This document shows positions 11,123-61,854 of a DNA stretch of 64,000 bases, piece after piece. The notes under the pieces are model-generated. The model saw only the letters and a list, made by a program, of their open reading frames with translations. It did no database searches and was not told the origin of the DNA. How positions within the stretch are numbered: the first letter of the stretch is position 1; each line of letters starts with the position of its first letter. This DNA is from Pelagibacterium halotolerans B2 (GTDB taxonomy: Bacteria > Pseudomonadota > Alphaproteobacteria > Rhizobiales > Devosiaceae): positions 3,371,001 through 3,435,000 of the forward strand of contig NC_016078.1 in assembly GCF_000230555.1 (NCBI RefSeq), in the 5' to 3' direction. Made by a program: the position numbers and the translations under genes.

Positions 11123-11857
11123 ATGGGGCTGTCCCGCCTTTTTGCCCGCCCGGAAATCCCCCAAACCACCGAGGTCGTGACAACCTCCGGCCCGGTCACG
11201 GTCGGCGTGCGGGTCAATGCGCGGGCCCGTTCGTATCGGTTGAGCGTTTCGGCGCGGGGCGAACCGGTATTGACAATGCCGCGCGCCGGACGCTGGCCCG
11301 AGGCGCGGGCCTTTCTCGAGCGCAACAGCGGCTGGCTGTCGGCCCGTCTCCAGCGCATCCAAACCCCCTATGCCCTGGCGCCGGGCGCCATCATTCCCCT
11401 GCGCGGCATTCCGCACCGGCTGGTCGGCCTCGATCGGGTGCGCGGCCTCGTCAGCCTTGTCGAGGGTGGCGTTGAGCCCGAACTGCATGTGCCGGGCGGC
11501 CCCGATCACATGCGCCGTCGTCTCATCGACTGGCTCAAATCCGAGGCGCGCCGCGATCTCGAGATCGCCTGCGCCCGCCACGCGCAAAATCTGGGGGTCG
11601 AAATGGCCGGTATAGTCCTGCGCGATCAGTCGACCCGCTGGGGCTCGTGCTCGTCGTCCGGCCGCCTCAATTTCAACTGGCGGCTGGTCCTTGCCCCGCC
11701 CGATGTGCTCGATTACGTCGCCGCCCATGAGGTGGCCCATATTCTCGAAATGAACCATCGGCCGGTCTTCTGGCGCACCGTCGCGCGAACGTGTCCCCAC
11801 TACGAGCGCCCCAAGGCCTGGCTCAAGGCCAATGGCGCGAGCCTGATGGCCCTCTAA
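11123..11857 (+). CDS. YgjP/SprT-like zinc metallopeptidase (M48-type, DUF45)
   Basis: This 244-residue protein belongs to the YgjP-like family. The zinc motif HEVAH is at residues 202-206, with a third ligand in MNHRPVFW, and the family signature RDQSTRWGSCSSSGRLNFNWRL lies just upstream. The physiological substrate is unknown. ATG 11123 fits the family N-terminus. The same frame is open 246 bases further upstream through the terminator region, which is unlikely to be translated. The TAA stop forms the end of repeat copy 2. Confidence 0.88.
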   Translation: MGLSRLFARPEIPQTTEVVTTSGPVTVGVRVNARARSYRLSVSARGEPVLTMPRAGRWPEARAFLERNSGWLSARLQRIQTPYALAPGAIIPLRGIPHRLVGLDRVRGLVSLVEGGVEPELHVPGGPDHMRRRLIDWLKSEARRDLEIACARHAQNLGVEMAGIVLRDQSTRWGSCSSSGRLNFNWRLVLAPPDVLDYVAAHEVAHILEMNHRPVFWRTVARTCPHYERPKAWLKANGASLMAL

Positions 11858-11960
11858 AGCCGTTCAGGATTTGATTGAATCAAATCCTTGGCTCTGAGCC
11901 TTTGTTTTATCGCGTGTCCGAACCGCAAAACCGTTTCCACTTTTGCTGGACACGCTCTAG
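11855..11960 (-). repeat. Palindromic TAGAGC/GCTCTA element, copy 2 (between two convergent stops)
   Basis: This 106-bp element is almost exactly the reverse complement of copy 3 (47976-48081). Its left end CTAAAGCC contains the TAA stop of the metallopeptidase gene. Its right end GCTCTAG contains, on the minus strand, the TAG stop of the CMD gene. The hairpin arms GTGTCC/GGACAC and AGCAAAA/TTTTGC(G) are intact, and the second half holds GGATTTGATT/AATCAAATCC, another palindrome. Confidence 0.88.
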
Positions 11961-12352
11961 GCCCGTGCATCGAACACGTCCTTTGCCGCAAACAACCCGT
12001 TGAGCGCCGCGGGAAAGCCTGCATAGACGGCCATCTGCATAATGATCTCGGTGATTTCGTCCCTGGTCAACCCGACATTGAGACCCGCCTCGATATGCAC
12101 TTTCAACTGCGGCGTTGCAGTGCCCATGGCCGTCAACGCCGCGATGGTGGCGATTTCGCGGGCCCGCAGGTCAAGGCCAGGGCGGCTATAGATGTCTCCG
12201 AACGGGAATTCGAACACATAGTTCGCAAAGTCGGGGGCGATGTCGGCCAGAGCGGCAATGACACTGTGGCCGGCTTCGCCGTCGATTTCGGCAAGCGCCC
12301 GTTTGCCGCGTTCGAGCCGGCTTTCGTCCATATCGGGGGGCTGATGCGTCAT
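11957..12352 (-). CDS. Carboxymuconolactone decarboxylase family protein (no CxxC)
   Basis: This 131-residue all-helical CMD-fold protein has the LDLRAREIATIAALTAMG and LNVGLTRDEITEIIMQMAVYAGFP segments typical of gamma-carboxymuconolactone decarboxylase relatives. It contains no cysteine, so it is not an AhpD-type peroxidase. The start overlaps the upstream merR stop by four bases, indicating one operon. A role in small aromatic or lactone turnover under MerR control is inference. Its TAG stop lies in repeat copy 2. Confidence 0.85.
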   Translation of the reverse strand: MTHQPPDMDESRLERGKRALAEIDGEAGHSVIAALADIAPDFANYVFEFPFGDIYSRPGLDLRAREIATIAALTAMGTATPQLKVHIEAGLNVGLTRDEITEIIMQMAVYAGFPAALNGLFAAKDVFDARA

Positions 12353-12717
12353 ACTTTTTCATCCTCATGATCCTTGCCGGCATATCCGGCAATCTTGGTG
12401 TCGAGGACGAGGAGAGAGGCTTCCAGTTCAGCGACATGTGCGCGGACGCGTTCGCGGTGCCGTTCGAGCAGATCGCGGCGTTGAGCTTCGGTCTCAACCC
12501 CGCCCGCCCGCAAGGCCGCGTAGCGCAGCATGTCCCGGATCGGCATTCCCGTTGTCTTGAGACGGTCGAGAAACTCTATCCAGACAAGGATCGATGCGTC
12601 GTAGTCCCGTTGGCCCGACCGGTCCCTGTCGGCATAGGGAATAAGGCCGATCCGCTCATAATAGCGGATCGTATGGGCCGTCAGTCCCGAGCGCTTTGCC
12701 AATTCGCCAATCTTCAT
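12349..12717 (-). CDS. MerR-family transcriptional regulator
   Basis: This 122-residue protein starts with the canonical MerR helix-turn-helix MKIGELAKRSGLTAHTIRYYERIGLI. A dimerisation coiled coil follows (ERVRAHVAELEASLLVLDTKI). It lacks the C-terminal cysteines of metal-sensing MerR proteins. ATG 12717 is chosen because it puts the HTH at residue 1, as in most family members; an ATG at 12744 exists. It is coupled to the CMD gene downstream and probably controls it. Confidence 0.88.
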   Translation of the reverse strand: MKIGELAKRSGLTAHTIRYYERIGLIPYADRDRSGQRDYDASILVWIEFLDRLKTTGMPIRDMLRYAALRAGGVETEAQRRDLLERHRERVRAHVAELEASLLVLDTKIAGYAGKDHEDEKV

Positions 12718-12804
12718 GAACGCCCGTCCCTCGTCACGACGCATGGGAAGCTACGGCTTAGAGTACACTCCAAGTCAACAGGCAAAATGGCGTTCGCAAT
12801 GCGC

Positions 12805-12840
12805 AAAAAAGCCCGGGTCGATTGCCCGGGCTTTTTCTTT
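12805..12840 (-). terminator. Bidirectional intrinsic terminator downstream of the PBP1A gene
   Basis: Stem AAGCCCGGG/CCCGGGCTT with a 7-nt loop is flanked by A6 and T5CT3, so it can stop transcription from either strand. It lies 25 bp after the stop of the minus-strand PBP1A gene. Confidence 0.9.
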
Positions 12841-12865
12841 TCAAGGATGGCGTGCGCCGCCGGCC

Positions 12866-15025
12866 CTATCCGCCGAACAGCCCGTTGAGCAGCCCGCCGA
12901 TCCCGTCATCGGCCGGCACCGCTACGGGTTGCTGCTGTTGCGGCTGTATCTGCTGCTGGGGCAGCGGAGTCGGCTGCTGGCCCGGCTGGCCCTGGATCTG
13001 GTCGAAGGTCACCGGCGTTCCGGTGGCCGGCATCGTGTCCTGCATCGGCACCGCCACCCGGTCCTGCAGTTTGACGTAATTGCCCGGAAGCGCCGCGGAC
13101 TGCAGGCCCTCATGGGCTTCGGTCATGATATCGCGCCAGATCTGGGCCGGGATCTGGCCGCCGAACACCCGGGTGGGCGTATCGTCGTCATTGCCCAGCC
13201 ACACCCCGCCCACAAGGCTTGCGGTATAGCCCACAAACAGCGCGTCGCGGTTGCGCTGGGTCGTACCGGTCTTGCCGGCCATCGGCCAGTTGCCCAGTTG
13301 CGCCCGCGTTCCCGTTCCGGCCTGAACGCCGGTCTGGAGCATGTCGTTCATCATGCCCACCTGCTCGTCGGTCAGGATGCGGCCCGGTCCGGCGGGCGTT
13401 TCCTCGAAAAGCACTTCGCCATCGGTTGTGGTGATCCGCGTGATCACATTGGGCACCACGCCATAACCGCCATTGGCGAACGGGGCATAGGCGCTGGTCA
13501 ACTCGAGCAGCGAGACTTCCTGCGTGCCCAGCGCGATCGAGGGCACGGGCTGGAAATTGGTGGAAAAGCCCATCCGATAGGCCGTCTCCACCACATTTTC
13601 AGGTCCGATATCGATGGCCAGGCGCGCCGATACCGTGTTGATGGAAAAGGCCAGCGCGTCGCGTAACAGCACCGGCCCGACATAGCGGCCGTTTGAGTTT
13701 TCCGGCTGCCAGCCCTCATAGTCGAGCGGCTCGTCCACCATCAGCGTGTCGGGCGTATAGCCCTGCTGCAGGGCGGCGAGATAGACAAAGGGTTTGAACG
13801 CCGAACCCGGCTGACGCCGCGAGGTCACGGCGCGGTTATAGCTCGATTGGCTGTAATCGACGCCCCCCACCAATGCACGCACCCGTCCCTCGGTGTCCAT
13901 GGCCACAAAGGCGGCCTGGGAAAAGTTCAGGTCTTCGCCCTGGGCCGCCACGGCCTCCTTGATGACGAATTCGGCCTGCTTTTGCATATCCCAGTCGAGC
14001 GTTGTCGAAACGACGACGTCCTCGTTCACCTCGCCCAGATAGTCGTTCATGAGCGTTTCCACCCAGTCGGCGACGTAATATTCGGTGCCGGCCACCCGCT
14101 GGGTGGTGATATTGGCATCCATGTTCTCGGCAGCGGCATCGGCCTCCTGCTGGGTGATGTAACCCGCGCGCACCATATTGGCGAGCGCCAGCCGCTGGCG
14201 CTCCGCGGCCCGGTCGGGATGGGTGCGCGGATTGTAATAGCTCGGCGCCGGCAGGATGCCGGCCAGCATGGCCGCCTGGCCCAGCGAAAGATTGCGCGCC
14301 GAAATGCCGAAATAGGTCTGCGCCGCCGCCTCGATGCCGGTCGAACCGGACCCGAAATGCACGCGGTTGAGATAGAGCTCCAAGATCTGGTCCTTGGAAT
14401 AGTTCTGCTCCAGCCACACCGCCAGCAGCGCTTCCTGCACCTTGCGGCCCAGGGTCTGGTCGGGGGTCAAAAACAGGTTCTTGGCGACCTGCTGGGTAAT
14501 GGTGGAGGCGCCACGGGTGATGCCGCCGGCCCGGATCATTTCCAGGGCCACCGATGTCAGGCCGATCGGATCGACCCCGAAATGGCTGTAGAAACGCCGG
14601 TCTTCGCTCGCAACGACCGCCTGGCCCACATAAGGGGGCAATTCGTGGATGCCCACCGCTTCGCCGCCAGTTTGCCCGCGATTGGTCAGAAGCTGCCCGT
14701 TTGATGCCAGAACCCGGATATTGGGCGGACGCTGGGGCACTTCCCAGGTCGAGGACGACCCCAGATCCTGCCCGTAATAGACGATGATTCCCGCCACCGC
14801 GACACCGCCCAAAAGCAGCATCGTAAAGCAGAAATAGGCAAAGCCGACGATGAACTTCATCCCGCCCGAGCGCTTTTTCTTCACCTTCTGCCCCTTTGGC
14901 CGGCGAGGCTTGCCGCCCTGCGGGCCATCGCCCGAACGGGTTGCCGATTGCCCACGCGCATTCTTGGGCTTGCGCTGCGCGCCGGCATCGACGCGATCAT
15001 CGGGAGAAAGACGAAGATCCATCAA
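12866..15025 (-). CDS. mrcA: Penicillin-binding protein 1A (bifunctional transglycosylase/transpeptidase)
   Basis: This 719-residue class A PBP has a basic cytoplasmic N-terminus (about 1-55, many Lys/Arg) and a membrane anchor at about 57-82. The GT51 glycosyltransferase has EDRRFYSHFG and TITQQVAKNLFL, and the transpeptidase has SAFK (Ser408), SIN and KTGTTQ near 583. It ends in an unusual Gln/Pro-rich tail of about 50 residues (LPQQQIQPQQQQPVAV) before GGLLNGLFGG. It polymerises and cross-links peptidoglycan at the inner membrane. An alternative start two codons in would change little. It is monocistronic, with the terminator at 12805-12840. Confidence 0.95.
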   Translation of the reverse strand: MMDLRLSPDDRVDAGAQRKPKNARGQSATRSGDGPQGGKPRRPKGQKVKKKRSGGMKFIVGFAYFCFTMLLLGGVAVAGIIVYYGQDLGSSSTWEVPQRPPNIRVLASNGQLLTNRGQTGGEAVGIHELPPYVGQAVVASEDRRFYSHFGVDPIGLTSVALEMIRAGGITRGASTITQQVAKNLFLTPDQTLGRKVQEALLAVWLEQNYSKDQILELYLNRVHFGSGSTGIEAAAQTYFGISARNLSLGQAAMLAGILPAPSYYNPRTHPDRAAERQRLALANMVRAGYITQQEADAAAENMDANITTQRVAGTEYYVADWVETLMNDYLGEVNEDVVVSTTLDWDMQKQAEFVIKEAVAAQGEDLNFSQAAFVAMDTEGRVRALVGGVDYSQSSYNRAVTSRRQPGSAFKPFVYLAALQQGYTPDTLMVDEPLDYEGWQPENSNGRYVGPVLLRDALAFSINTVSARLAIDIGPENVVETAYRMGFSTNFQPVPSIALGTQEVSLLELTSAYAPFANGGYGVVPNVITRITTTDGEVLFEETPAGPGRILTDEQVGMMNDMLQTGVQAGTGTRAQLGNWPMAGKTGTTQRNRDALFVGYTASLVGGVWLGNDDDTPTRVFGGQIPAQIWRDIMTEAHEGLQSAALPGNYVKLQDRVAVPMQDTMPATGTPVTFDQIQGQPGQQPTPLPQQQIQPQQQQPVAVPADDGIGGLLNGLFGG

Positions 15026-15269
15026 AGGTCACTTTCGGCCGTCATGAGGAGAACAAGGGTCGATATTTGGCACTCCAAGGGCACCCATCGGCACCCTCAC
15101 ACAACGCTATACCCGCGTCGGGCGTTTCTTCGACGCATAACGCTATCGGCGTCAAATGTGGCCGGTTTATGGGACATTTTCCACTCTCGCAAGCGATTGT
15201 GTCCCCCGCGCAACAGTTTAGGCGCCAACCGCCCTTCGATCCCTACCGCGTGCGGCACCCGGTTTGCGC

Positions 15270-15644
15270 TTAGCCCGGGGGTGCAGGCTGCGAATCGGCA
15301 ATGGCCGGGCCGGCCGCGCCCTCGGGTTCGGCATTGCCGTCAACTTCCTCCCACCAGTCGCCCAACGCATCTATGAGCGGCACCAGCCGGTCGCCGGCCG
15401 GTGTCAGGTCGTATTCGACCCGAAGCGGATAGCCACCGAACTCGGTCCGGCAGACGATGCCGGCGTCTTCGAGCTTGCGCAGTTCGAGCGTCAGCATCTT
15501 GTGGGAGATGGTCGGGTTGTCCCGGCGAAGGTCGCTGAAGCGCTTCGTGCCCTCTTTGAGATAATAGATCAGCAATGTTGGCCAGCGGCCGCTGAGGACC
15601 TGCATGACCTCTTCGATCGGACAGCGCGAAACAAGGTCTTTCAT
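15270..15644 (-). CDS. HxlR-family transcriptional regulator
   Basis: This 124-residue winged-helix regulator has the HxlR core: CPIEEVMQVLSGRWPTLLIYYL, then the wing/recognition segment FSDLRRDNPTISHKMLTLELRKLEDAGIV. Cys8 is at the usual redox-sensing position of HypR/QorR-type members. ATG 15644 matches the family start; the frame stays open far upstream but only as antisense of the GST gene. It is divergent from the GST gene, with a 108-bp shared promoter, so control of that gene is likely. Confidence 0.9.
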   Translation of the reverse strand: MKDLVSRCPIEEVMQVLSGRWPTLLIYYLKEGTKRFSDLRRDNPTISHKMLTLELRKLEDAGIVCRTEFGGYPLRVEYDLTPAGDRLVPLIDALGDWWEEVDGNAEPEGAAGPAIADSQPAPPG

Positions 15645-15752
15645 CTGCAACTCGTGGTAACAAAAAGGTGCGTAATTTACTTTGTTCGCCCGCCCGCTAG
15701 GGTCCGGCCTTGCTGCGCAGCGTGATCGAAAGAAATCACGGAGAACAAGAAC

Positions 15753-16460
15753 ATGGAACCCATATTGATATACGGCTTTCCTGCGGGAAGCTCCATGGGA
15801 CTCGTCGCCGCTCTCGAATGGATGGGCAGCCCATACAGGCTCTGCCGCGTCGATATGCTTGAAGAGATGCGTGACCCCTCCTACCGGCGAATAAACCCGC
15901 GCATCGAAACGCCCGCCCTGATCACCGATCAAGGCGATGTGCTTACCGAAACCATGGCAATCGCGGCATGGCTGGAGGCCCGGGACACTGGGCGTCGGAT
16001 CAGCTTTGCCCCCCTTTCGCGTGACGCCGACCGGATGCGTCAGTTCATGGCCTTCATCAACACCGGCTTCACCGGTGCGTTCGGGCCCCTCTGGGCCGCA
16101 ATGGAAATGCAGCCGCCCAACCCTGCAATGCAATCGGCCCTCAAGGTCTGGGGCGGCGATGGTGTGATTGAACGCCATGATCGGCTCGAAGAGATGATCG
16201 GAGATACGCGATTTCTGGTCGCCGAGCATCCCACGCTGGCCGATGGTATTCTCATCGGCGTTGCCCGTTGGCTCGACGTCCATCAGGTGGCCGACAAGAC
16301 CCGCTGGCCCCGCCTCGCCGCCCTCAGAGGCCGCTTGGAGGCCGATCCGGCCGTTCTCTACGCTACGGCCTTGGAGAACGGCGAAATGTCTGGGGGCAAC
16401 GGATCGTGCAGGGGGCATGTCACATTGTCCGACGCAATCGAGCGGTTTGGATCGAAGTGA
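15753..16460 (+). CDS. Glutathione S-transferase family protein
   Basis: This 235-residue protein has an N-terminal thioredoxin fold (ILIYGFPAGSSMGLVAALEWMG; cis-Pro in ETPALITDQG; ETMAIAAWLE for glutathione contacts) and an all-helical C-terminal domain with VAEHPTLADGILIGVARWLD. It is divergent from the HxlR regulator, a common pairing for electrophile-inducible enzymes. The substrate is unknown. A GGAGAA ribosome site lies 8-10 bases before the ATG. Confidence 0.88.
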   Translation: MEPILIYGFPAGSSMGLVAALEWMGSPYRLCRVDMLEEMRDPSYRRINPRIETPALITDQGDVLTETMAIAAWLEARDTGRRISFAPLSRDADRMRQFMAFINTGFTGAFGPLWAAMEMQPPNPAMQSALKVWGGDGVIERHDRLEEMIGDTRFLVAEHPTLADGILIGVARWLDVHQVADKTRWPRLAALRGRLEADPAVLYATALENGEMSGGNGSCRGHVTLSDAIERFGSK

Positions 16461-16500
16461 CGATCACGCACCGGCTTGAAATCCAGACAAGTCGTCCCAA

Positions 16501-16530
16501 CAAAAACCCCGGAGCTTGCGCTCCGGGGCC
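16501..16530 (-). terminator. Intrinsic terminator of gyrB
   Basis: Stem CCCCGGAGC/GCTCCGGGG with a 4-nt loop is followed on the minus strand by TTTTTG. It lies 32 bp past the gyrB stop. Confidence 0.9.
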
Positions 16531-16561
16531 CAATTCACAGTGCTGCCAGCCCGCCTGCCGA

Positions 16562-19129
<2,568 letters not shown>

Positions 19130-21542: not shown

Positions 21543-21880
21543 CGCTTATAGACCCCTGATCTTTTGCGTCTGGTTTTTCGCGGCCCGGACCGGACCTTCC
21601 CTGGCCCCAAAGCCGGGCACAGACCCTGCCCCGCCGGGCAAAAAAACGCAAGGCCCCACCCGGCCGCAGGAGGCTGGCGGGGCAATAATTTGGTGGATTG
21701 TTGGCGCGAAAAGATTCCCTTGCGTCTGCCAGGGGCTTTCTTGGCCCCAGCACCCCTCACCGGCCTGCCGGCCACCCTCTCCCCGGGGGGCGAGGGTTCA
21801 GTCTATGCCGTGCGTCGATGCCATACCCGGCCGCCGCAACCAAAAACCGTTAGACCCCAGATTGTCCCCGATCACGAGGC
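21543..21880. other. Upstream region of dnaN, no gene seen
   Basis: This GC-rich spacer between dnaN and the tandem repeat has no supported ORF, no DnaA box (TTATCCACA or close variants) and no clear promoter that I can call. It includes CACCCCTCACCGGCCTGCCG near 21750-21770, which looks like a partial third copy of the neighbouring repeat core. Confidence 0.5.
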
Positions 21881-22250
21881 GCTGCCGCCGTTCCCCACCA
21901 GCGCTCCCGCAAGACAAACCCTCGCCCCTTTGGGGAGAGGGTGGCCGGCAGGCTGGTGAGGGGTCAGCCCCAGCCAAGATCACCGATCCATCGGCCAAGC
22001 CCCGTCTCACCTCTCCCTCGGGGGGAGAGGTCGCCGCATAGCGGCGGGTGAGGGGGCCTTCTTGCATACGCGCGCTGCCGCCGTTCCCCACCAGCGTCCC
22101 CGCAAGACAAACCCTCGCCCCTTTGGAGAGAGGGTGGCAGGCAGGCCGGTGAGGGGCCAGCCCCAGCCCAGATCACCGATCCATCAGCCAAGCCCCGTCT
22201 CACCTCTCCCTCAGGGGGAGAGGTCACCACATAGCGGCGGGTGAGGGGGC
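21881..22250. repeat. Tandem 193-bp direct repeat between dnaA and dnaN
   Basis: Two near-identical units (21881-22073 and 22074-22250) share GCTGCCGCCGTTCCCCACCA, GCAAGACAAACCCTCGCCCC and CACCGATCCATC. Each contains palindromic GGAGAGGGTGG / CACCTCTCC arms that fold strongly. The core (CCTCTCC...GGAGAGG, GGCGGGTGAGGGGG) resembles common proteobacterial intergenic repeats. The duplication is recent-looking, with only scattered differences. No coding potential is credible. Confidence 0.85.
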
Positions 22251-22420
22251 CGTGCTGAAAAAGACGCGGGAGCCTTGGCGCATGGCGCCCCGGGGGCCTT
22301 GCTTGTTTGCAGCAGAGCCGCCGCAGCCCTCCGAGCATAGCTCTTCGGGCGTTCGCCCCTCAAAAAGGTGCGTCTTTTGCCGCCGGCCCTTCAGCCATAG
22401 GCTTCAGGGCGTTCGCAGCT

Positions 22421-22470: not shown

Positions 22471-23904
22471 TCACTCCTCCAGCATGCGCCGGAGCAGTTC
22501 GATTTCCTGGGTCAGCTCGCCATCCTGGCTCATGAGCTGTTCCACCTTGCGCACCGAATGGAGCACGGTGGTGTGGTCGCGCCCGCCGAACCGGCGGCCG
22601 ATTTCGGGCAGGGACCGCGAGGTCAGCGACTTGGCCAGATACATCGCGATCTGGCGCGGGCGCACCACGTCGCGCGAGCGGCGCGACGATAAAAGCTCGT
22701 TGCGCGGCACCTTGTAGTGGCGGGCGACGATTTTGAGGATGTCCTCGATCCGCACCCGGGGCGTCTCGCGCGAGCGGATCAGGTCCTGCAGGGTCTTTTC
22801 GGCAAGCCCCACCGTGATCGGCTCGCCGGTCAGCTGGTTGGCGGCCACCAGCCGGTTGACGGCACCGTCGAGGTCGCGGCCGTGGCTCACGATCGAGCGC
22901 GCCACGTAATCGATGACAGGGGCGGGAAAGCTCAGTCCGGTAAACCGGCTTGCTGCCTGGTCGGCCCGTTTCTGGACGATGGCGCGGCGCAGTTCGGGAT
23001 CGAACTGGGTGATGGGGATCACAAGCCCCCCCGATAGCCGCGAGCGCACCCGGTCGTCGAGCATTTCCAGATCGCGCGGCGGCGCATCGCCGGCCACAAC
23101 GACCTGCTTGGTGCCCGAAATCAGGGTCGAGAGCGTATGGCCGAATTCGGTGGCCGATTTGCCCTGCAGGAACTGCATGTCGTCGATCAGCAAAAGATCG
23201 ATCCCACGCAGCCATTCCTTGAAGGCCAGCGCCGACTGGTGCTGCACCGCCGTGATGAAATGATACATGAAATGGTCGGCGGTCAGATAGACGATGTTGC
23301 GCGAAACGTCGGACGCCCCTGCCGCCCAGGCAATGGCATTGAGCAGATGGGTCTTGCCCAGCCCCACCGAGGAATGGATATAGACCGGGTTGAACGTCAC
23401 CACATTGTTGGCAGCGGCCGAGGCGACCTGCTTGGCGACATTGAGCGCCATTTCATTGGCGCTGCCCGAAACGAAAGTCTCGAAGGTCAGCTTGCGGTCC
23501 AGCGCCGAGCCCGAAAGCGCATTGGCCCGCGTGCCGCTGGCCGGCTGGCTGGTAACAAGCGCGGGAACGGTCCGCACCTCGGCAACGCCGGGTTGGGCCT
23601 CGGTCTCTGCCGCCGGCTCGTTGGAGGCGACAAGGCGCGGACGAGCCTGTCCATTGACGCGCACCGTCAGGTGCAGCCGGCCGATGGTCTCGTTTTCGGC
23701 GGTAAAGGCCTCGAGGATCTTTTCGACATAGTTGGACTGGATCCACGAGCACAAAAAGCGCGTGGGAACGGAAAGATGCGCGAGGTCGCCGACGACTTCT
23801 TCCAGCTCGAGCCGGGCGAACCATGACGTAAAGACGTCTTCGCCAACCGCTGCCCTCAGCCGCGCCCGCACGCGCAGCCAGACCTGATCGGCATCCATTG
23901 TCAT
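22471..23904 (-). CDS. dnaA: Chromosomal replication initiator DnaA
   Basis: The protein has 477 residues. Domain I has [25 protein letters not shown]. The AAA+ domain has Walker A GLGKTHLL, Walker [10 protein letters not shown], and sensor/arginine-finger region [23 protein letters not shown]. Domain IV has the DNA-binding signature [19 protein letters not shown] 23904 follows an AAGGGGAAG ribosome site; an upstream ATG (24009) would add 35 residues with no resemblance to DnaA. It is encoded downstream of rpsT on the same strand, and separated from dnaN by repeats, not directly followed by it. Confidence 0.97.
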
Positions 23905-24477
23905 CTTGGCTTCCCCTTCGCCCCCGATTTTCGTCCTTTGCGGAACTGTGCCCGCTTTGCCTCCAGTCGCTCCCCAGGTTCCGCGATCCGCAGCCGCGAT
24001 CGAATCCATTGCTGTTGCCTCTTAATGCTATGACGTCCCGCCCATCCCCGGCGGCAACCCCTGTTTCCCCAAATTTGTCCCGTTGCCCGAGACAATAAAT
24101 TTACGCCCCCGCGCAAGCGTTTATTGCGCAGTACCCTATTGTTACAAATTGAAATCGGCGCAACGGCGCCTGAGGAAAAGACGAAACCCGTCTTTGTCGG
24201 TCTAGAAGTGAACCAGGAACTTGGGATGCTCGGTCATCGCACCATGACGGCCCGCAAAGAGCCGTAAATGATTTAAGCCGGTCATCGCTGTCCCCTTGGT
24301 CTACCCGTATGAAGGAGGCGTTAGACTTGTCTTTCGCCGCCCCCTTTCTGATCCAACGAGGCCATTTTAGACAGTCAAATTTTTGCGCACAACCGCAGAT
24401 TTGGCCAAAAATCCGCTTGACTCGTCCCCCATGCGTACAGCCGGGACCGGGCGGTCCGGCAAGGCAAAATTAAGGGT

Positions 24478-29640: not shown

Positions 29641-29745
29641 CGGAGTGCTTCCAGAATAAGTGGACACCACTTATTCGGTTCGGAAGCACGACAAACCAAA
29701 GAGCAGAAGAATTTTTGCGATTCGAAGAAGCGCGGAAATGCTCTG
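29641..29745 (+). repeat. Palindromic element, copy 5 (GAATAAGTG stem subclass, eroded ends)
   Basis: This copy has the second stem type: GCTTCC-A-GAATAAGTG, loop, CACTTATTC-GGTTC-GGAAGC. The tail GATTCGAAGAAGCGCGGAAATGCTCT is shared with copies 1 and 9. Both terminal TAG motifs are eroded (GGAGTGC and GCTCTGA), and neither flanking gene uses it as a stop. Confidence 0.8.
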
Positions 29746-30408: not shown

Positions 30409-30855
30409 ATGACGGTCGGCTTTAAATGGCTCGAGCATGGGCGGGGCCTGCCCCTGCCACAGCGCCAGAGCAAGGGAGCATCGGGGTACGATCTCGCCGC
30501 GGCGCTTGCCGATGGCGAAGCCCTCGTCATCGCCCCGGGCGCCTTCGCGCTTGTTCCATGCGGTTTCGCTCTGGCGCTGCCTGTCGGCTATGAGGCGCAG
30601 GTTCGACCGCGCTCTGGCCTTGCTGCCCGGCACGGTGTTACCGTGCTCAACGCGCCCGGCACGGTCGACGCCGATTACCGCGGGGAGGTCAAGGCAATCC
30701 TCGTCAACCACGGCGCCGCGCCGTTCGAAATCCGGCGCGGCGACAGGATCGCCCAGATGGTGGTCGCCGCTGTGCCCGATATTGCGCTTGTCGAAGTGGA
30801 CGAACTCGAGGAGACCGCACGTGGCACTGGTGGATTTGGCTCGACGGGGACCTAG
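30409..30855 (+). CDS. dut: dUTP pyrophosphatase
   Basis: This 148-residue trimeric dUTPase shows motif 1 (SGYDLAAAL), motif 2 ([11 protein letters not shown]), motif 3 ([19 protein letters not shown]), motif 4 (RGDRIAQMV) and the glycine-rich C-terminal arm (GTGGFGSTG). It hydrolyses dUTP to dUMP, limiting uracil in DNA. The stop TAG is the first three bases of a repeat element. Confidence 0.97.
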
Positions 30856-30940
30856 AGCGTTTCCAGAAAAAACATGTCCTCGACCCCGATCGGGGATGCG
30901 AACCGCTTTTTCGGTTCGGAAGCGCGACCACTTAAAATGG
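30853..30940 (+). repeat. Palindromic element, copy 6 (dut stop at left end, DUF2259 start inside)
   Basis: It begins TAGAGCGTTTCCAG and carries the pairing half GCTTTTTCGGTTCGGAAGCGCGACCA. An extra palindrome (CGACCCCGATCGGGG) expands the loop. The left TAG is the dut stop codon, and the DUF2259 start codon (30896) is within the element. Confidence 0.75.
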
Positions 30941-47708: not shown

Positions 47709-47978
47709 ATGTCGATTACTGCTGAGCGCAAGGCTGAGCTCATCAAGGACTATGCTACAAAGGCTGGCGATACCGGTTCTCCGGAAGTTCAGGTCGCCAT
47801 CCTCACCGAGCGCATCAACAATTTGACCGACCATTTCAAGACCCACGGCAAGGACAATCACTCCCGCCGCGGGCTGTTGAAGATGGTCGCGACGCGCCGT
47901 TCGCTTCTCGACTATGTCAAGCGCGGCGACGAAGCGCGGTATCAGAGCCTGATCGAACGGCTCGGCATCCGCCGCTAG
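47709..47978 (+). CDS. rpsO: 30S ribosomal protein S15
   Basis: This 89-residue protein has [21 protein letters not shown] at the start and [20 protein letters not shown], the S15 signature. It binds the central domain of 16S rRNA. ATG 47709 is the family start; GGGATATTACG precedes it. Its TAG stop is the first codon of repeat copy 3. Confidence 0.97.
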
Positions 47979-48081
47979 AGCGTGTCCAGCAAAAGTGGAA
48001 ACGGTTTTGCGGTTCGGACACGCGATAAAACAAAGGCTTAGAGCCAAGGATTTGATTCAATCAAATCCTGAACGGCTCTAG
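47976..48081 (+). repeat. Palindromic element, copy 3 (rpsO stop at left end)
   Basis: The element begins TAGAGCGTGTCCAGCAAAAG and ends GGCTCTAG. Hairpin arms GCGTGTCC/GGACACGC enclose GCAAAA/TTTTGC, and a second palindrome GGATTTGATT/AATCAAATCC follows. It is almost identical to copy 2 in opposite orientation. The left TAG (47976-47978) is the rpsO stop codon. Confidence 0.9.
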
Positions 48082-48109: not shown

Positions 48110-48178
48110 ACCCGGAAGCGTTCTCAGAAAAAGTGGAAACCGGTTTTTCGCTTCGAGACCGCGACCAGAAAAGGGACC
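48110..48178 (+). repeat. Palindromic element, copy 4 (degenerate, truncated)
   Basis: GGAAGCGTTCTCAGAAAAAG, TGGAAACCGGTTTTTCGCTTC and GAGACCGCGACCAGA keep the family's hairpin layout with many changes. The terminal TAGAGC is lost, and the second half is missing. It is in the pnp leader, 30 bp after copy 3. Confidence 0.65.
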
Positions 48179-51138: not shown

Positions 51139-51140
51139 CC

Positions 51141-51938: not shown

Positions 51939-52364
51939 ATGAAAAAGACCCATTCCGGCTCGTGCCATTGCGGCGCCGTCCATTTCACCGCTCCTCTCGA
52001 TCTCGATGAGGGCATCCGCAAATGCAACTGCACTTTTTGCTTCAAGACCGGTTATCGCAAGGCGTTCGTCTATGGCGATTCGGTGCGGGTGACCCGGGGT
52101 GAAGCCCATATCGGCCATTACACCGCCGATCCCTCCTCATGGCCGCAGGGCACGATCGATCACATGTTCTGCAAGACATGCGGCACGCAGGTCTTCTCGC
52201 GCGGCTATCTCGAATTCGAGCCCTTCAACGGCTGGTTCCACGCCGTCAACGTGTCCACACTGGACGATGTGACGCCTCAAGAGCTCGATGCCGCCCCCAT
52301 CGTCTACGAGGACGGCCTTCACGACCAGCAGATGCAGGCTCCGACCCTGACCGGTTATCTCTAG
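51939..52364 (+). CDS. GFA family (zinc-ribbon) protein
   Basis: This 141-residue protein has the GFA zinc ligands: CHCGAVHF, CNCTFCFKTG and CKTCGTQVF. It is a paralogue of the 40001-40369 protein, with about 30-40% apparent similarity by eye in the cysteine blocks. The function is unproven. Its stop TAG is the first three bases of repeat copy 7. Confidence 0.88.
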   Translation: MKKTHSGSCHCGAVHFTAPLDLDEGIRKCNCTFCFKTGYRKAFVYGDSVRVTRGEAHIGHYTADPSSWPQGTIDHMFCKTCGTQVFSRGYLEFEPFNGWFHAVNVSTLDDVTPQELDAAPIVYEDGLHDQQMQAPTLTGYL

Positions 52365-52428
52365 AGCGCTTCCAGGATAAATGGGCACCACTTATCCGGT
52401 TCGAAAGCGCGACAAAACAATGCTCTAG
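52362..52428 (+). repeat. Palindromic element, copy 7 (short form, GFA stop at left end)
   Basis: This 67-bp short form begins TAGAGCGCTTCCAG, has stem GGATAAATG/CACTTATCC, and ends GCTCTAG. It lacks the second half of the 105-bp form. Its left TAG is the stop of the GFA gene. Nine bases further, another CTAGAGC gives the minus-strand TAG stop of the hydroxyacid dehydrogenase. Confidence 0.85.
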
Positions 52429-54313: not shown

Positions 54314-54336
54314 CGTCCCATCGCTCCGCCGGTGCC

Positions 54337-56428: not shown

Positions 56429-56456
56429 TCCCTACGATTGACCGCCTGATACCAAC

Positions 56457-56488
56457 AAGGCCGCCCTTTGGGGCGGCCTTTCGATTTC
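56457..56488 (+). terminator. Intrinsic terminator of ptsN
   Basis: A 9-bp stem AAGGCCGCC/GGCGGCCTT with a 6-nt loop is followed by TCGATTT. It is 29 bp past the ptsN stop. Confidence 0.85.
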
Positions 56489-56509
56489 GGGTGGGCGTCG
56501 GCCGTCTTG

Positions 56510-56611
56510 GAGCGCGTCCAGCAAAAGTGGAAACGGTTTTGCGGTTCGGACGCGTGAAAAAACAACGACTTAGATCAAGTTAGCGATTCGACGAAAAGCG
56601 GATTTGATCTA
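56510..56611 (+). repeat. Palindromic element, copy 8 (minus-strand stop at right end)
   Basis: GGAGCGCGTCCAGCAAAAGT opens the element, and the second half GCGATTCGACGAAAAGCGGA leads to GATCTA. The left TA is lost. On the minus strand the right end TAGATC supplies the stop of the next gene (56609-57208). Confidence 0.85.
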
Positions 56612-57208: not shown

Positions 57209-57280
57209 GGCTCCCTCCACAGCACTTCTCGAGCATCGATACCAGCTTTCAGGCACGAAAGCCCGGGCGACCTGCGTGAT

Positions 57281-57315
57281 AAAAAAGGGCCATCCCATGC
57301 GGGGCAGCCCTTTTT
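57281..57315 (-). terminator. Terminator downstream of the VOC gene
   Basis: Arms AAAAAGGGC/GCCCTTTTT around a 16-nt spacer have A and T runs on both sides, so the hairpin could be bidirectional. It follows the VOC stop by three bases on the minus strand. Confidence 0.8.
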
Positions 57316-57318
57316 GGT

Positions 57319-57726
57319 TTAGCGTTTCCAGCTATCGTTATAGAATACGACGCGGTAGCCGTCAGGATCCTCAAACGTAACGCCTTCGGCGTCCCACCAT
57401 GGATTGAAGGATTTCACCGGCGTGTAACCCACCGCTTCCATGCGGTCGCGCGCCTGCCCATAGGCGGTTTCATCTGGCAGGTAAAAGACCAGCAGATTGT
57501 CTTTTGTTGGCGCGCGTCCGGCGGTGTGGCTATGCGCGCGGGTAAATTCGAGGTGATAGGGCGCGCCGGATCCGCCCAGGATTATGCCATCGAACCCGTT
57601 ATGTGCCTCGAAGCGGGATAAAAGTTCAAACCCCATCCCGTCGCGATAGAAATGCAGGAGCGCGTCGATGTTGTCGGTGGGGCGGGCGACACGCAGCACC
57701 GGCGCACTCTTGGCAGGCTCATTCAT
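57319..57726 (-). CDS. VOC-family (glyoxalase-like) protein
   Basis: This 135-residue protein has two beta-alpha-beta-beta-beta modules: LRVARPTDNIDALLHFYRDGMGFELLSRF and a second ending VTFEDPDGYRVVFYNDSW. Metal-ligand candidates are His of YHLEF and Glu/Asp of FEDPDG. The substrate is unknown. It lies two bases downstream of the DUF1150 gene in the hsp20 operon. Confidence 0.85.
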   Translation of the reverse strand: MNEPAKSAPVLRVARPTDNIDALLHFYRDGMGFELLSRFEAHNGFDGIILGGSGAPYHLEFTRAHSHTAGRAPTKDNLLVFYLPDETAYGQARDRMEAVGYTPVKSFNPWWDAEGVTFEDPDGYRVVFYNDSWKR

Positions 57727-57728
57727 GG

Positions 57729-58031
57729 CTAATGCAACGTCGCCAGTTGCACTTCGTGGCCGTCGATCCAGTCCATGATCGCGTCTTCGGTGTCGGCGAT
57801 CAGAACGGGAGCGCCGTCGGCACTCATGAGCAGTTCCAGCCTTTGTTCGGCAGGCGCCATGGCGGCCTGGGGGATGAATTCGGCCAGTTCGCCCGCGTTC
57901 ATCTGCTTGCGGAACACGATGTCCCCGGCGCCCAGCGCGGCAAATTGCGCGGCGGTCAGCGCCTTGAGCGGTTCGGCCGAAACGCCCAGATGGGCGTCAG
58001 TGAACGCTGTCTTTTCAATGGGCTTGTTCAT
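57729..58031 (-). CDS. DUF1150 family protein
   Basis: This 100-residue protein has FAALGAGDIVFRKQMNAGEL and LELLMSADGAPVLIADTEDAIMDW, typical of the DUF1150 family. In Hyphomicrobiales it is regularly encoded after an hsp20 gene, as here (13-bp gap). The function is unknown; coexpression with the chaperone suggests a stress role. Confidence 0.88.
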   Translation of the reverse strand: MNKPIEKTAFTDAHLGVSAEPLKALTAAQFAALGAGDIVFRKQMNAGELAEFIPQAAMAPAEQRLELLMSADGAPVLIADTEDAIMDWIDGHEVQLATLH

Positions 58032-58044
58032 AACGCATACCTCT

Positions 58045-58467
58045 CTACTCGACCGAACGGATCTCGATACGGCGGGTCACGGTCTCGGTGACGGGCCGGT
58101 ATACGGTGATAACGAGGAGGCCGTCTTTCAGTTCGGCGCCCTCTATCCTCATGCCGTCGGCAAGCAGGAAAGTACGCTGGAACTGCCTTGCGGCGATGCC
58201 GCGATGCAGATACTGGCGCGCACCGTCTTCGGCCTGCCTGCCCCGCACGATGAGCTGATTATCCTCCCCAATCACTTCCAGATCGTTACGAGAAAATCCC
58301 GCGACCGCAATGGCGATCGAATAGGTCTCATCCCCACCTTGTGCGGTTACCCGCTCGATATTGTAGGGAGGATATCCCTCGGAGGCCCGTGCGAGCCGGT
58401 CGAAACGTTCTTCGAACGTGTCAAAGCCCAGAAGGAAGGGGGCGGAAAACAGCGATACCCGTGTCAT
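58045..58467 (-). CDS. Small heat-shock protein Hsp20 (IbpA type)
   Basis: This 140-residue alpha-crystallin-domain chaperone has YPPYNIERVTAQGGDETYSIAIAVAGFS and LRHRGIAARQFQRTFLLADG-like core segments (here YLHRGIAARQFQRTFLLADG). The C-terminal tail is short (RRIEIRSVE). It holds unfolding proteins during heat stress. The 5' leader is a ROSE-type RNA thermometer. ATG 58467 follows the ROSE-embedded AAGGA. Confidence 0.94.
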   Translation of the reverse strand: MTRVSLFSAPFLLGFDTFEERFDRLARASEGYPPYNIERVTAQGGDETYSIAIAVAGFSRNDLEVIGEDNQLIVRGRQAEDGARQYLHRGIAARQFQRTFLLADGMRIEGAELKDGLLVITVYRPVTETVTRRIEIRSVE

Positions 58468-58535
58468 CGGTCGTTCATGTCCTTGATACCAAGCAACATC
58501 CTGACGATGACCCTCTTTTAGGCTTCATCGTCACT
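58468..58535 (-). promoter_or_regulatory. ROSE-type RNA thermometer in the hsp20 leader
   Basis: On the minus strand the hairpin nearest the gene is TGCTTG-GTAT-CAAGGA (58480-58495), pairing the Shine-Dalgarno AAGGA with TTGCT. It has the G-G mismatch typical of ROSE elements (U-U/C-GCU opposite AGGA). Upstream is an 8-bp perfect stem GACGATGA/TCATCGTC (58503-58510, 58525-58532). ROSE elements of rhizobial hsp genes melt on heat shock and release the ribosome site. Confidence 0.75.
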
Positions 58536-58582
58536 TGGCTATGATATGGGTCGCAGCGCGCGCCGTTCAAGAGAACTTATCG

Positions 58583-59428
58583 ATGCTAAAAGAGCTTGCC
58601 GTCTCCATCGTCATGCCCGCCTACAGGGCGCAGGGCACCATCGCCCGCGCCGTCGCCTCGGCGCTGGCCCAGACCCATGTCCATTTCGAATTGATCGTGG
58701 TCGCCGATGACGAGGAGGATTACGAGGCCGTTCTGGGCCGGGCGGGCATTGTCGATCCGCGGCTGCGGTTTTTCGCGTCGGGCCTGATCGGCGCCGGCTC
58801 ATGCCCGGCCCGCAATGTGGGGCTGGACGCCGCCCGCTATGAAATCGCCGCGATTCTGGATGCCGACGACGCCTTCAAGCCCGAAAAGCTCGAGATCATG
58901 GTGCCGCTCGCCATCGAATACGGGCTGGTCTCCTGCGCGCTGGATGTCACCACGCCCGAGGGTTCCCACCTGCGCTATGTCGGCGAAGGCGAAAACCGCC
59001 TGCTTTCGCCCGGCGACTACAAATTCACCAATTTTTCCATGGATTCCATGCTGGTCCACGATCGCCGCCGCGCCGATCCGCGCTTTTCGACAACCCAGCC
59101 CTCGATGACCGATCTCGATTTCCTGCTCAAGCTCTTTGCCGGTGTGCCGGCCTGTTTCCACGTCGGGGTGCCATTGCACGATTACGTGAAGATGCCCGTT
59201 TCGCTCTCCAATGGCCCCGGTGTCACCGAGAGGATGGTCGCCTCCAAGACCATGATGCGAAAAGGCCTGGCCGAGGGGCGCTACCCCCTGGCCGACCCGA
59301 CCGGAATTGTCGGCATGGGCCGTTTTCTCGACATCTCGCTCGCCGCCGAAAAAACCTATGCCCCCCGACCCGGCGCCAGTCCGCCCGATCTCTTCGAAGA
59401 TCATCTCGAGCCGCTATTAAAGCGGTAG
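58583..59428 (+). CDS. Family 2 glycosyltransferase
   Basis: This 281-residue GT-A enzyme has N-terminal VSIVMPAYRAQGTIARAVASALAQTH, and the metal-binding DxD region ILDADDAFKPEKLE (residues 91-104). It is a single soluble domain. The acceptor is unknown, probably a surface polysaccharide. ATG 58583 is chosen; an upstream ATG (58535) lies within the hsp20 promoter. It is convergent with the next gene, overlapping by 12 bp. Confidence 0.87.
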   Translation: MLKELAVSIVMPAYRAQGTIARAVASALAQTHVHFELIVVADDEEDYEAVLGRAGIVDPRLRFFASGLIGAGSCPARNVGLDAARYEIAAILDADDAFKPEKLEIMVPLAIEYGLVSCALDVTTPEGSHLRYVGEGENRLLSPGDYKFTNFSMDSMLVHDRRRADPRFSTTQPSMTDLDFLLKLFAGVPACFHVGVPLHDYVKMPVSLSNGPGVTERMVASKTMMRKGLAEGRYPLADPTGIVGMGRFLDISLAAEKTYAPRPGASPPDLFEDHLEPLLKR

Positions 59429-60418
59429 GGTCATGGTCGGCTCGCCGATGGGAGCCGGCCCATCCTCCAGACACCCCATCGCCACAAGCGTTTGCCGCAT
59501 GGCGGTATCGAGCGGCGTGCGCGGCTCTTGGCCGAGCAGTTCGACGAGCCTTGTGTTGTCCATCCGCATCGGATGACGCCAGACCGCCGCGATATCGGCC
59601 GCCTCGCGCGCAAAACCGCCGAACGGCGCCAGAAGATGCATCGCCCACCAGGGAAAGCGCCAGACCGGCAATTTGCGACCCACCTGGCCCTCAACAGCCG
59701 CGATCATCACTTTTCCGCTCGCATCGTAAACCCCCTCGAACTGCACCCGCTCGAACGGGCGCAGATTTTCCGGACGTTCGAGCAGCAGCGCGAAGGTTTG
59801 CGCAAGATCGGGCAGATACGCCCAACTGTGCCCGCCCCCGCGCGCGACATTGACGATCCGCCGCACCGGCTTGCCCGGCGCCACCATGGCCTGCGCAAAC
59901 CAGCTCGACCGCGCGCCCGGCCCGAAAAAATCGCCGGCCCGCACGATAAGGCTTTCCCCCTCCGGCGCCGCCCGCTCGAGCCGGGCTTCGAGCTCGGCCC
60001 GAATGCGCCCCTTGACGCTTTTCGGGTTCTGCGGGCTGGCCTCACTCAATACCGGGGTTTGTGCCGGATCGAAATTATAGACGGTGCCCGGAAGCGCGAT
60101 CCGCGCGCCCACGGCCCGCGCAGCGGCAATCGTGTTGTCGATCATCGGCAGCACCAGTCTGTCCCAATCCTTGTAGCCCGGCGGATTGACCGCGTGCACG
60201 ATGACCGAAACACCTTCAGCGCCACGGCTCACATCGGCCCGGCTCATCGCGTCTCCGCCCACCCATTGGACCCCGGCCGGCCCGTTCCGGCGGGCCGCTT
60301 CGAGATCTCGCGCCAGCCCGCGCACCGCCCATCCCCTGGCCAGCAACGCCCCGGCGATGGCGCCGCCCACCCCGCCTGTGGCCCCCAGAACCAGTGCCGT
60401 CCTCTTTTCGCTATCCAT
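59417..60418 (-). CDS. NAD-dependent epimerase/dehydratase family protein
   Basis: This 333-residue atypical SDR has LVLGATGGVGGAIAGALLARGW (nucleotide loop), VIVHAVNPPGY and PGTVYNFDPAQ. Its 3' end overlaps the glycosyltransferase gene convergently. It is divergent from a LysR gene with a 99-bp shared promoter, so regulation by that LysR is expected. Confidence 0.87.
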   Translation of the reverse strand: MDSEKRTALVLGATGGVGGAIAGALLARGWAVRGLARDLEAARRNGPAGVQWVGGDAMSRADVSRGAEGVSVIVHAVNPPGYKDWDRLVLPMIDNTIAAARAVGARIALPGTVYNFDPAQTPVLSEASPQNPKSVKGRIRAELEARLERAAPEGESLIVRAGDFFGPGARSSWFAQAMVAPGKPVRRIVNVARGGGHSWAYLPDLAQTFALLLERPENLRPFERVQFEGVYDASGKVMIAAVEGQVGRKLPVWRFPWWAMHLLAPFGGFAREAADIAAVWRHPMRMDNTRLVELLGQEPRTPLDTAMRQTLVAMGCLEDGPAPIGEPTMTLPL

Positions 60419-60517
60419 GACCTAAATCCTTCATCCGCATTTCAGATGACCGAAAGATGGGCTCGCGCGCTTTGAAAATAAATTGTCAAAACTTGCAGTA
60501 TTGCCTACAAGAAATTT

Positions 60518-61414
60518 ATGAAGCGAACGATCAACTGGGACGATCAGCGTATCTTCCTCGCCGTGCTCGAAGCGGGCAGCCTTTCGGGCGCAGCGCGACG
60601 CCTTGGCCTGTCACACCCCACGGTGCGCAGCCGCATCGAGGCGCTCGAAGCCGATCTGGGCGTCGTGTTGTTCACCCGCTCGATGACCGGGCTCACCCCC
60701 ACCGAGGCGGCAGAGGCCCTGCGCGAGCCCGCTCAGGCCATGGCAACGGCATCGCAGGTGTTCATCCGCCGCGCCTCGGCGCCCGAAGCGGCTATTGCCG
60801 GGGTCGTCCGCCTGAGCGTGCCCGATTTCATGGGCATCGAAGTGGTTCCCGCAATGCTCGAACGCTTGAGGGTCGCCCATCCGGCCATCAGGATCGAGCT
60901 GTCCCTGTCAAACCTCCCCGCAGATCTCATGGCCCAGGAGGTCGATCTGGCGGTCCGCGCCATGGAGCCCAAGCAAAAAGGGCTTGTCGCCCGCAAGGTG
61001 GCCAATATCCCCTTGGGTTTTTTCGCGTCCAAAGCCTATGTCGCGCGGCGCGGGCAGCCGCTCACCACCGACCAGCTCGCCGCCCACGATATCATCGGTC
61101 CCGATCGTAACCTGTCCGACCTGGCGCTGGCCGGGCCCTTCGCCGCCGCGTTCGATCCCGCCGGTCTTGTGTTGCGCACCGACAGTCACCCTGCCCAACT
61201 GGCCGCCGCCCGGGCCGGCCTGGGCATCGCCCTGGTCCAGGTGCCTACAGGCAATGCCGATGCCGGTCTGGTCAGGATCCTGCCCGATTTTTCCCCCGCC
61301 GATATCCAGACCTGGATCGTCACCCACGAAAACCTGGCCCGCGTGCCGCGCGTCCGTGCCGTGTTCGATGCGCTCGTTGCCGGGTTCCACGCCATGATGC
61401 GTGGGGTGAAGTGA
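60518..61414 (+). CDS. LysR-family transcriptional regulator
   Basis: This 298-residue LTTR has N-terminal HTH (FLAVLEAGSLSGAARRLGLSHPTVRSRIEALE) and a periplasmic-binding-type effector domain (GVVRLSVPDFMGIEVVPAML). It probably controls the divergent epimerase gene and itself. The effector is unknown. Confidence 0.93.
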   Translation: MKRTINWDDQRIFLAVLEAGSLSGAARRLGLSHPTVRSRIEALEADLGVVLFTRSMTGLTPTEAAEALREPAQAMATASQVFIRRASAPEAAIAGVVRLSVPDFMGIEVVPAMLERLRVAHPAIRIELSLSNLPADLMAQEVDLAVRAMEPKQKGLVARKVANIPLGFFASKAYVARRGQPLTTDQLAAHDIIGPDRNLSDLALAGPFAAAFDPAGLVLRTDSHPAQLAAARAGLGIALVQVPTGNADAGLVRILPDFSPADIQTWIVTHENLARVPRVRAVFDALVAGFHAMMRGVK

Positions 61415-61500
61415 CCGCAACGCAACCAGTTCGCCCCTTTGTGCGTTATAGAACTGTCCTTTTTCGGGACGACCATTCACTTTGCTGTTGTGGGGACAAA

Positions 61501-61752
61501 ATGGAAGACGCAGGAATTGGCTGGATTGCAGCCATCATCATTGGCGGTCTGGCCGGCTGGATAGCCTCGGCCATCATGAAGACCGGCACGGGAATTTTTC
61601 TCAACATCGTTCTCGGCATCGTCGGCGCGGCGATTGCCAGTTTTCTTTTCGGCCTTGTCGGAATTTCGTTCGGCGGCTGGCTGGGTTATCTGATCGCCGG
61701 TCTGATCGGTGCGTGTATCCTCATCGCGCTTGTCAGGGCCGTTCGGCGTTAG
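61501..61752 (+). CDS. GlsB/YeaQ/YmgE-family stress membrane protein
   Basis: This 83-residue protein of three hydrophobic helices has WIAAIIIGGLAGWIASAIMK and GIFLNIVLGIVGAAIASFLF, the transglycosylase-associated (GlsB) family. It is an inner-membrane protein often induced by general stress. TAG stop 61750-61752 is the start of repeat copy 9. Confidence 0.9.
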   Translation: MEDAGIGWIAAIIIGGLAGWIASAIMKTGTGIFLNIVLGIVGAAIASFLFGLVGISFGGWLGYLIAGLIGACILIALVRAVRR

Positions 61753-61854
61753 AGCTTCCAGGATAAGTGGGTATCACTTATCCGGTTCGGAAGCGCGACA
61801 AAACAAGGACTTAGAGCAATAGAAGCGATTCGAGGAAGCGCTGAAATGCTCTAG
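61750..61854 (+). repeat. Palindromic element, copy 9 (GlsB-gene stop at left end)
   Basis: This 105-bp element runs from TAGAGCTTCCAGGATAAGTG to GAAATGCTCTAG. Stem GGATAAGTG/CACTTATCC is closed by GCTTCC/GGAAGC. The left TAG is the stop of the GlsB-type gene; the gene's terminator lies further downstream, separated from the stop by the element. Confidence 0.9.

Follow-up and report, generated by a model that had tools for sequence, protein, structure and literature searches.

The window analysed here, a stretch of 64,000 nucleotides from the main contig of Pelagibacterium halotolerans B2 (NC_016078.1, positions 3,371,001 to 3,435,000), carries copies of a palindromic repeat, bounded by TAGAGC and GCTCTA, whose ends fall exactly on the stop codons of genes. 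The family very probably consists of mobile, non-autonomous elements of the two-hairpin type known from rhizobia, resembling RIME1 (the Rhizobium-specific intergenic mosaic element, reportedly described by Osteras, Stanley and Finan in 1995), which insert at the tetramer YTAR (Y, pyrimidine; R, purine), leave TA on both sides and rebuild the stop codons that they enter. What carries this reading was observed directly: the target, the flanking TAs, a single clean empty site, a single nested insertion, the frequency with which element ends coincide with stop codons (hereafter docking), and the docking of near-identical copies.

Docking on stop codons

An earlier sequence-only reading of the window named seven stop codons that are formed by the ends of these elements, and an in-frame check finds all seven to coincide exactly with element ends. 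The genome comprises a contig of 3,944,837 bp and a second of about 4 kb. Across it the element core gives 121 matches, 99 forward and 22 reverse, against none for the reversed control; 100 of these were listed and 99 fetched with their flanks, the remaining one lying at a contig end. Among usable ends, a stop codon stands exactly at the end of the element in 35 of 88 cases on the left and 26 of 76 on the right, and 55 of the 92 copies with a usable end are docked at one or both ends. The counts omit ends with more than one mismatch and unresolved right ends. On the left they also omit the docked window copy at 61.75 kb, whose assigned left end is two bases off, and on the right two 102-bp copies (967467 and 1531539) in which the stop lies 3 bases inside the assumed 105-bp end, i.e. 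at the element's own end.

TA flanks 58 copies on both sides (the clean copies), and 39 of these are docked (p = 3e-8 against a background of 400 kb with 396 called genes). When the comparison is limited to copies with a YTAR tetramer, 38 of 56 are docked, against the 17.5 expected from the same tetramers in the background. Neither end is strongly favoured, with 18 clean copies docked on the left only and 15 on the right only, and the orientation to the docked gene is about even. Copies with at most two differences from type I or type II (subfamilies described below) are docked as often as the others (26 of 40 against 29 of 52, p = 0.40). Docking does not grow with age, and therefore needs no long selection.

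Genes that end inside an element are rare. Only one left-flank gene does so among the 88 resolved left ends (1229465, offset 63), and one weak gene call runs across an element (3254913); six cases of read-in from the right all lie at unresolved right ends that were assumed to be 105 bp away. In relatives, including Devosia, 22 of the 33 copies that have a TA-bearing left end are docked, and no gene flanking these 33 ends 1-70 bases inside the element.

The target site and the filled and empty rpsO stop

Next to an intact TA, the outer base at left ends is C in 52 cases, T in 24, A in one and G in one (76 of 78 pyrimidine), and at right ends G in 46 and A in 21 (67 of 67 purine). The tetramers of the 58 clean copies are CTAG (25), TTAG (14), CTAA (13), TTAA (4) and others (2). 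The insertion target is YTAR, mostly CTAG. The sequence-only reading had proposed a bare TA; the TA part stands, and the specificity is corrected to YTAR.

The clearest single case is the stop codon of rpsO. In a relative, presumably P. luteolum (G007), the site is empty and reads CGCCGC-TAG-TGTTTTGAACTTCGG, where the window has CGCCGC-TA-(element)-TAG-TGTTTTGAACTTCGG. Over the longer stretch CGCCGC TAG TGTTTTGAACTTCGGTGCGGGGCCGGC the window is identical except for the element between TA and TAG, and rpsO of the relative terminates at the same codon as the docked gene. A second insertion can be read within the family itself: at 2547040 a type I element has inserted in an internal TTAG of a type III element. 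The proposals that the elements enter at TA, leaving TA on both sides, and that a stop codon survives the insertion are both borne out, the first by the filled and empty rpsO sites together with the nested copy.

At the rpsO stop of 15 relatives the stretch printed shows no full element, and the stop codon there is TAG or TAA in 14 and TGA in one. Two of them (G008 and G011) have sequence there that begins TAGAGCAATTGA, as the type III right module does, a possible remnant. A genome of another genus (G013) shows, by eye, a sequence resembling the left module about 8 bases after the stop.

How much of the docking the target explains

In the background, YTAR occurs 212 times in coding sequence, 226 times between genes and 72 times at stop codons, and CTAG 39, 35 and 28 times, respectively. 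Stop codons account for 24% of the YTAR sites outside coding sequence, and for about half where genes converge; most clean copies lie in such convergent regions (38 of 58, against 44 of 313 background intergenic regions that are convergent). From this supply of sites, about 60% of the docking follows from target and location. An excess over intergenic placement persists, with 29 of 38 copies docked in convergent regions (17.9 expected, p = 5e-4) and 10 of 16 in tandem regions (5.4 expected, p = 0.03); in divergent regions 0 of 4 are docked. The genome-wide enrichment at stop codons predicted by the sequence-only reading is thus present in convergent and in tandem regions, the two classes in which a stop can be docked, although its larger part is what the target alone would give. 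What remains after target and location is a modest excess of 1.6-1.9 fold, for which local structure, selection or the small background counts may be responsible.

A proposed mechanism for the preserved stop codon

A TAA or TAG stop that follows a pyrimidine is itself a YTAR site. After insertion, TA and the first G of the element would read TAG on the side of the gene, and the old third base of the stop, A or G, would be shifted to the far side of the element, leaving the protein unchanged. Former TAA stops would in this way become TAG. Judged by the outer bases at 45 docked ends, 36 stops would have been TAG before insertion and 9 TAA; these 9 are where the mechanism predicts TAA-to-TAG changes. 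Insertions within genes or promoters should be lost. With YTAR scarce in GC-rich coding sequence, such purging, and stop codons forming a large share of the sites that remain, copies would accumulate at stop codons. The movement itself would be due to a DDE transposase acting in trans, and the chemistry of IS5-type insertion sequences (ISs) would best fit the target.

If so, TAA and TAG codons act as self-healing insertion sites, which gives a simple reason why a repeat could spread to more than 100 copies without breaking genes. Stop codons are also a place to look for other elements that target YTAR.

Architecture and spread of the family

An element has two hairpin modules, the left one of about 62 nucleotides, with an AAAACAA linker, the right one of about 42. 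The body, about 101-103 bp, starts with GAGC, ends with GCTC and lies between the two TAs. By eye, the printed copies fall into two large subfamilies, types I and II, and a third, type III. Copies with both ends resolved are mostly 104-106 bp, or 125-128 bp when inserts are present. Eight type I copies are 100% identical across 105 bases, which indicates recent movement. Both modules are predicted to fold strongly as RNA (z = -7.5 for the rpsO copy, -4.5 and -3.4 for two other window copies). When 12 left modules, taken from the window and rhizobial plasmids, are aligned, 10 of 17 predicted pairs have both sides changed in at least one sequence.

Several copies (e.g. 735395, 1471435, 1541195, 3119152 and the window copy at 30853) carry an insert of about 24 bases, of the CATGTCCTCGACGCGATCGGGGATG type, in the loop of the left hairpin, and some of the elements with this insert carry a second one in the right loop. 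The main contig is seemingly circular and cut within an element, one half of which lies at each contig end.

Exact matches to one form of the core occur in 36 stretches of the genome collection, from Pelagibacterium, Devosia, one Mesorhizobium and unclassified assemblies. Among plasmid records, 275 match the rpsO copy at E up to 10; of these, 175 are from Rhizobium, and a few match over the full length at 71-75%. Most of the 11 printed plasmid regions have, by eye, the two-module layout of the window elements. In 5 of 11 annotated regions a deposited gene ends exactly at the element:
Shinella HZN7, Ochrobactrum MT180101, Rhizobium K102 and R. beringeri (L293, L294, L297 and L300): docked at the left end
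R. ruizarguesonis (L299): docked at the right end
The stop-docked arrangement therefore exists in rhizobial RIME1-like plasmid copies.

The elements of the window

The presence of the family at the places first reported for the window is confirmed. TAGAGC occurs 27 times against 9.3 expected, and TAGAGC/GCTCTA pairs with a gap of 30-60 bases occur 3 times against 0.01 expected. The nine copies first counted become eight elements and a worn left part at 48117-48172, and the copies placed at 48.0 and 48.1 kb are, judged by the positions of TAGAGC, two halves of a single 105-bp element. The elements and the stop codons at their ends are:
1455..1558, plus strand: type II element of 104 bp with a TA on each side, undocked (the upstream TAG stop finishes at 1433)
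11855..11959, minus strand: type I element, 105 bp, lying between two convergent genes and docked on the stop of each
11855..11857, plus strand: TAA stop of a YgjP-like gene (PF01863), made by the right end of that element
11957..11959, minus strand: TAG stop of a CMD gene (PF02627), made by its left end
about 29642..29745, plus strand: worn copy, ends without TA, undocked
about 30853..30928, plus strand: left module only, with an internal insert; right limit approximate
30853-30855, plus strand: stop of the dUTPase gene (dut, PF00692), the first 3 bases of that left module
47976..48080, plus strand: type I element, 105 bp; seven further copies in the genome have the identical sequence
47976-47978, plus strand: stop of rpsO (PF00312), the first 3 bases of that element
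48117..48172, plus strand: worn left module, 3' of the rpsO copy
52362..52427, plus strand: left module closed by GCTCTA; its first 3 bases (52362-52364) are the stop of a GFA-family gene (PF04828)
56508..56611, plus strand: element whose left module resembles type II, with the left TA changed to TG
56609-56611, minus strand: stop of a secreted-protein gene, at the right end of that element
61750..61853, plus strand: type III element; its first 3 bases (61750-61752) are the stop of a transglycosylase-associated GlsB-type gene (PF04226)

The stop of a hydroxyacid dehydrogenase gene beside the 52.4-kb copy had been mentioned as a further case. It does sit in CTAGAGC, but the GAGC lies inside the gene and by eye no element is attached. 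Four of the docked proteins do not look truncated, since their Pfam profiles end near the last residue (S15 88/89, dUTPase 147/148, Transgly_assoc 83/83 and CMD 125/131). The YgjP-like and GFA gene products have Pfam matches too; the product of the minus-strand gene at 56.6 kb has no Pfam match. Rfam covariance models at the gathering score match only tRNA in the window, leaving the elements unmatched. A separate repeat family is seen beside dnaA, at 21752-22251, as two tandem copies of 180 bp (94%) that contain the inverted pieces CCCCTCACC...CTCTCCCC.

Candidate mobilisers and alternative explanations

Which transposase moves these elements? Mobilisation in trans by the IS5-type elements of this genome, recognised by the DUF4096 domain, we consider unlikely, even with a good deal that points to it. 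There are eight DUF4096 matches, five related ISs (one at 76% identity) are bounded by TA on either side, and six of the eight adjoin an element end with which they share the TA (274413, 2737864, 2950291, 3035263, 3202978, 3268782; L216). The IS5 target, as given in the accessible part of a published account, is Py-T-A-Pu with CTAG commonest (PMC5493358). Yet the IS ends, of the GGGTCAATCGACATTCA and GGCTGTRGTGACRATTTA types, are unlike GAGC...GCTC, and TA-bounded terminal repeats were absent at 8 of 13 IS5-type places tried, by a search able to find TA-bounded ends only. One related genome (G011, 84% complete) holds 93 element copies and no DUF4096 match. The adjacency is also explained by element ends that offer YTAR: one rve-type IS, whose ends also differ from those of the elements, lies in CTAG with an element on one side in all three copies counted (1907731, 3282259 and 3662087), the genome having two further rve matches. 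One copy of this IS lies directly 3' of the stop of a gene that by eye is MarR-like. We read the adjacency as ISs landing on YTAR sites supplied by the elements; larger ISs would seem to use the element ends as landing sites. An IS630/Tc1-mariner-type mobiliser, as suggested by the sequence-only reading, is less likely still. The TA on both sides would suit it, and the accessible part of an account of RUP and IS630-Spn1 provides a precedent (PMC2229807). Its DDE_3 domain, the one IS630 domain searched, has no match in the P. halotolerans genome, the only genome searched for it, and YTAR is the target published for IS5; we reject this mobiliser on present evidence. The hairpins and the strand-biased orientation would also fit an HUH-type, REP-associated (RAYT) transposase, an explanation that we regard as very improbable and reject: the Y1 transposase domain (PF01797) is found in none of six genomes of the genus. 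To our knowledge, TA on both sides is not expected of this class.

Other explanations concern the genes rather than the movement. The hairpins may be signals for transcription or for the 3' end of mRNAs, in which case copies near stop codons would be retained as useful to the gene. Strong folding with changes on both sides of pairs, the crowding of clean copies between convergent genes and the residual excess all speak for such a role. We consider it improbable as the cause of docking, as near-identical copies are docked equally often, no full element is seen at the rpsO stop in the stretch printed for 15 relatives, and the orientation to the docked gene is about even. Random truncation of genes, with the element supplying a new stop, is hardly credible. 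TAGAGC does hold a stop in one frame, and one gene reads 63 bases into an element; random insertion would place stops within the element in both remaining frames as well, and there is one clear case among 88 resolved left ends. The right outer base is never Y (67 ends), which excludes truncation at Tyr codons, and both the complete Pfam domains of four docked proteins and the shared end codon of rpsO in G007 argue against it. Truncation with a donated stop is largely refuted by the frames and the outer bases.

Several points weigh against reading the family as mobile elements that rebuild stop codons. About 60% of the docking is target content, and the remainder is measured against small background classes (40 YTAR sites in convergent regions). 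Outside the annotated plasmid records, the gene calls come from a home-made hexamer model trained on 184 long open reading frames (ORFs). The 12 plasmid regions, 11 of them annotated, were chosen from 30 listed matches with gene names in view; they were not selected blind, so the 5 of 11 should not be taken as a rate. A clean orthologous empty site is available at a single locus, most of 12 places tried in G007 being too diverged to read, and the relatives show a looser target (Y before 28 of 33 left ends, R after 15 of 16 right ends). By eye, the terminal inverted repeats are identical in GAGC...GCTC and their further bases only weakly alike, which is weak for a classical miniature inverted-repeat transposable element (MITE). 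No mobiliser has been identified among the IS5-type and rve-type elements whose ends were found, as these differ from the element ends.

Orientation around the chromosome

A side result concerns the direction of the elements. In four Pelagibacterium genomes 244 of 302 copies (81%) run opposite to dnaA (in the window an ORF at 22471-24009, minus strand), i.e. 99 of 121 in P. halotolerans (G000), 27 of 35 in G001, 76 of 96 in G008, where the count takes in a second contig, and 42 of 50 in G009. Eight other genomes of the genus, fragmented or with few copies, gave no usable orientation bias. The bias holds in both halves of the chromosome, 51:12 and 30:7 in P. halotolerans and 13:3 and 8:2 in G009 (26 listed of 50 copies). 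Near-identical copies, defined as above, are biased in both halves too (14:2 and 19:5), and we therefore reject the idea that a past inversion of one replichore alone produced the bias.

In sampled stretches the dnaA strand is mostly G-rich (17/20 in G000, 18/20 in G009, 9/10 in G001 and 7/10 in G008). The motif GGGNAGGG, which we take to be the FtsK-orienting polar sequence (KOPS), flips opposite dnaA in all four genomes; it is mixed near dnaA, and in P. halotolerans still minus (0:4) at 3.86 Mb. A search for 16S rRNA, intended to give operon strands, found none in the four genomes among the 22 of 63-90 candidates that were scored. In G009, matches of a DnaA-like ATPase at profile positions 138-239, presumably the IstB of a candidate IS21-type element, lie on the dnaA strand in 10 of 11 cases, and a second set at 143-237 is 5:2.

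It is possible, though we think it doubtful, that a polarity runs around the whole circle and is not reset at the terminus, with fork-oriented insertion on a chromosome copied mostly by a single fork, or with some other strand asymmetry, despite the convergence of KOPS. A survey, in its accessible part, predicted 77 unidirectional large replicons, some of them alphaproteobacterial (PMC7858055). A simple polarity is opposed by the published unidirectional chromids, in which, according to the same part, dif lies near ori (PMC7858055), by the mixed strands of other matches in G009 (rve-type 12:8, DUF4096 14:7) and by the lack of a consistent coding-strand bias (58% on the dnaA strand in G000, 47% in G009). 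The orientation bias nevertheless offers a testable lead on replication in Pelagibacterium.

Comparison with known systems

RIME1 elements of the Hyphomicrobiales are intergenic, about 100-105 bp long and built of two large palindromes. By this definition, the elements described here are RIME1-like and of a known kind: most copies are 104-106 bp with two hairpins, and the matches of the rpsO copy are to rhizobial plasmids, 175 of 275 records being from Rhizobium. The subfamilies differ, and the YTAR target, the TA on both sides and the docking on stop codons documented here go beyond RIME1 as we know it. The short palindromic Bru-RS repeats of Brucella have IS711 at their ends and are landing sites for IS5-type elements, a role like that of the element ends here.

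The following comparisons draw on the accessible parts of the cited accounts. The IS5 family shares the YTAR target with its preference for CTAG, but duplicates four bases where we see TA, and has no matching ends (PMC5493358). RUP of pneumococcus and the enterobacterial RU are, as here, non-autonomous hairpin elements at TA, of about 100-170 bp; these accounts tell of stop codons inside the elements and of gene fusions, and in the parts seen describe no stop docking (PMC2229807, PMC2759123). The literature covered, in part and with few subscription papers, held no description of stop-codon docking for such elements, which is weak evidence of novelty. MITEPsy1, of 100 nt with CTAG or YTAA as target, is similar to the present family and differs in its 18-nt terminal repeats, common with a known IS, and in its four-base duplication (PMC3189936). 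The target-site duplication by which MITEs are recognised is present here, as TA at both ends of 58 copies and a single TA at the empty rpsO site.

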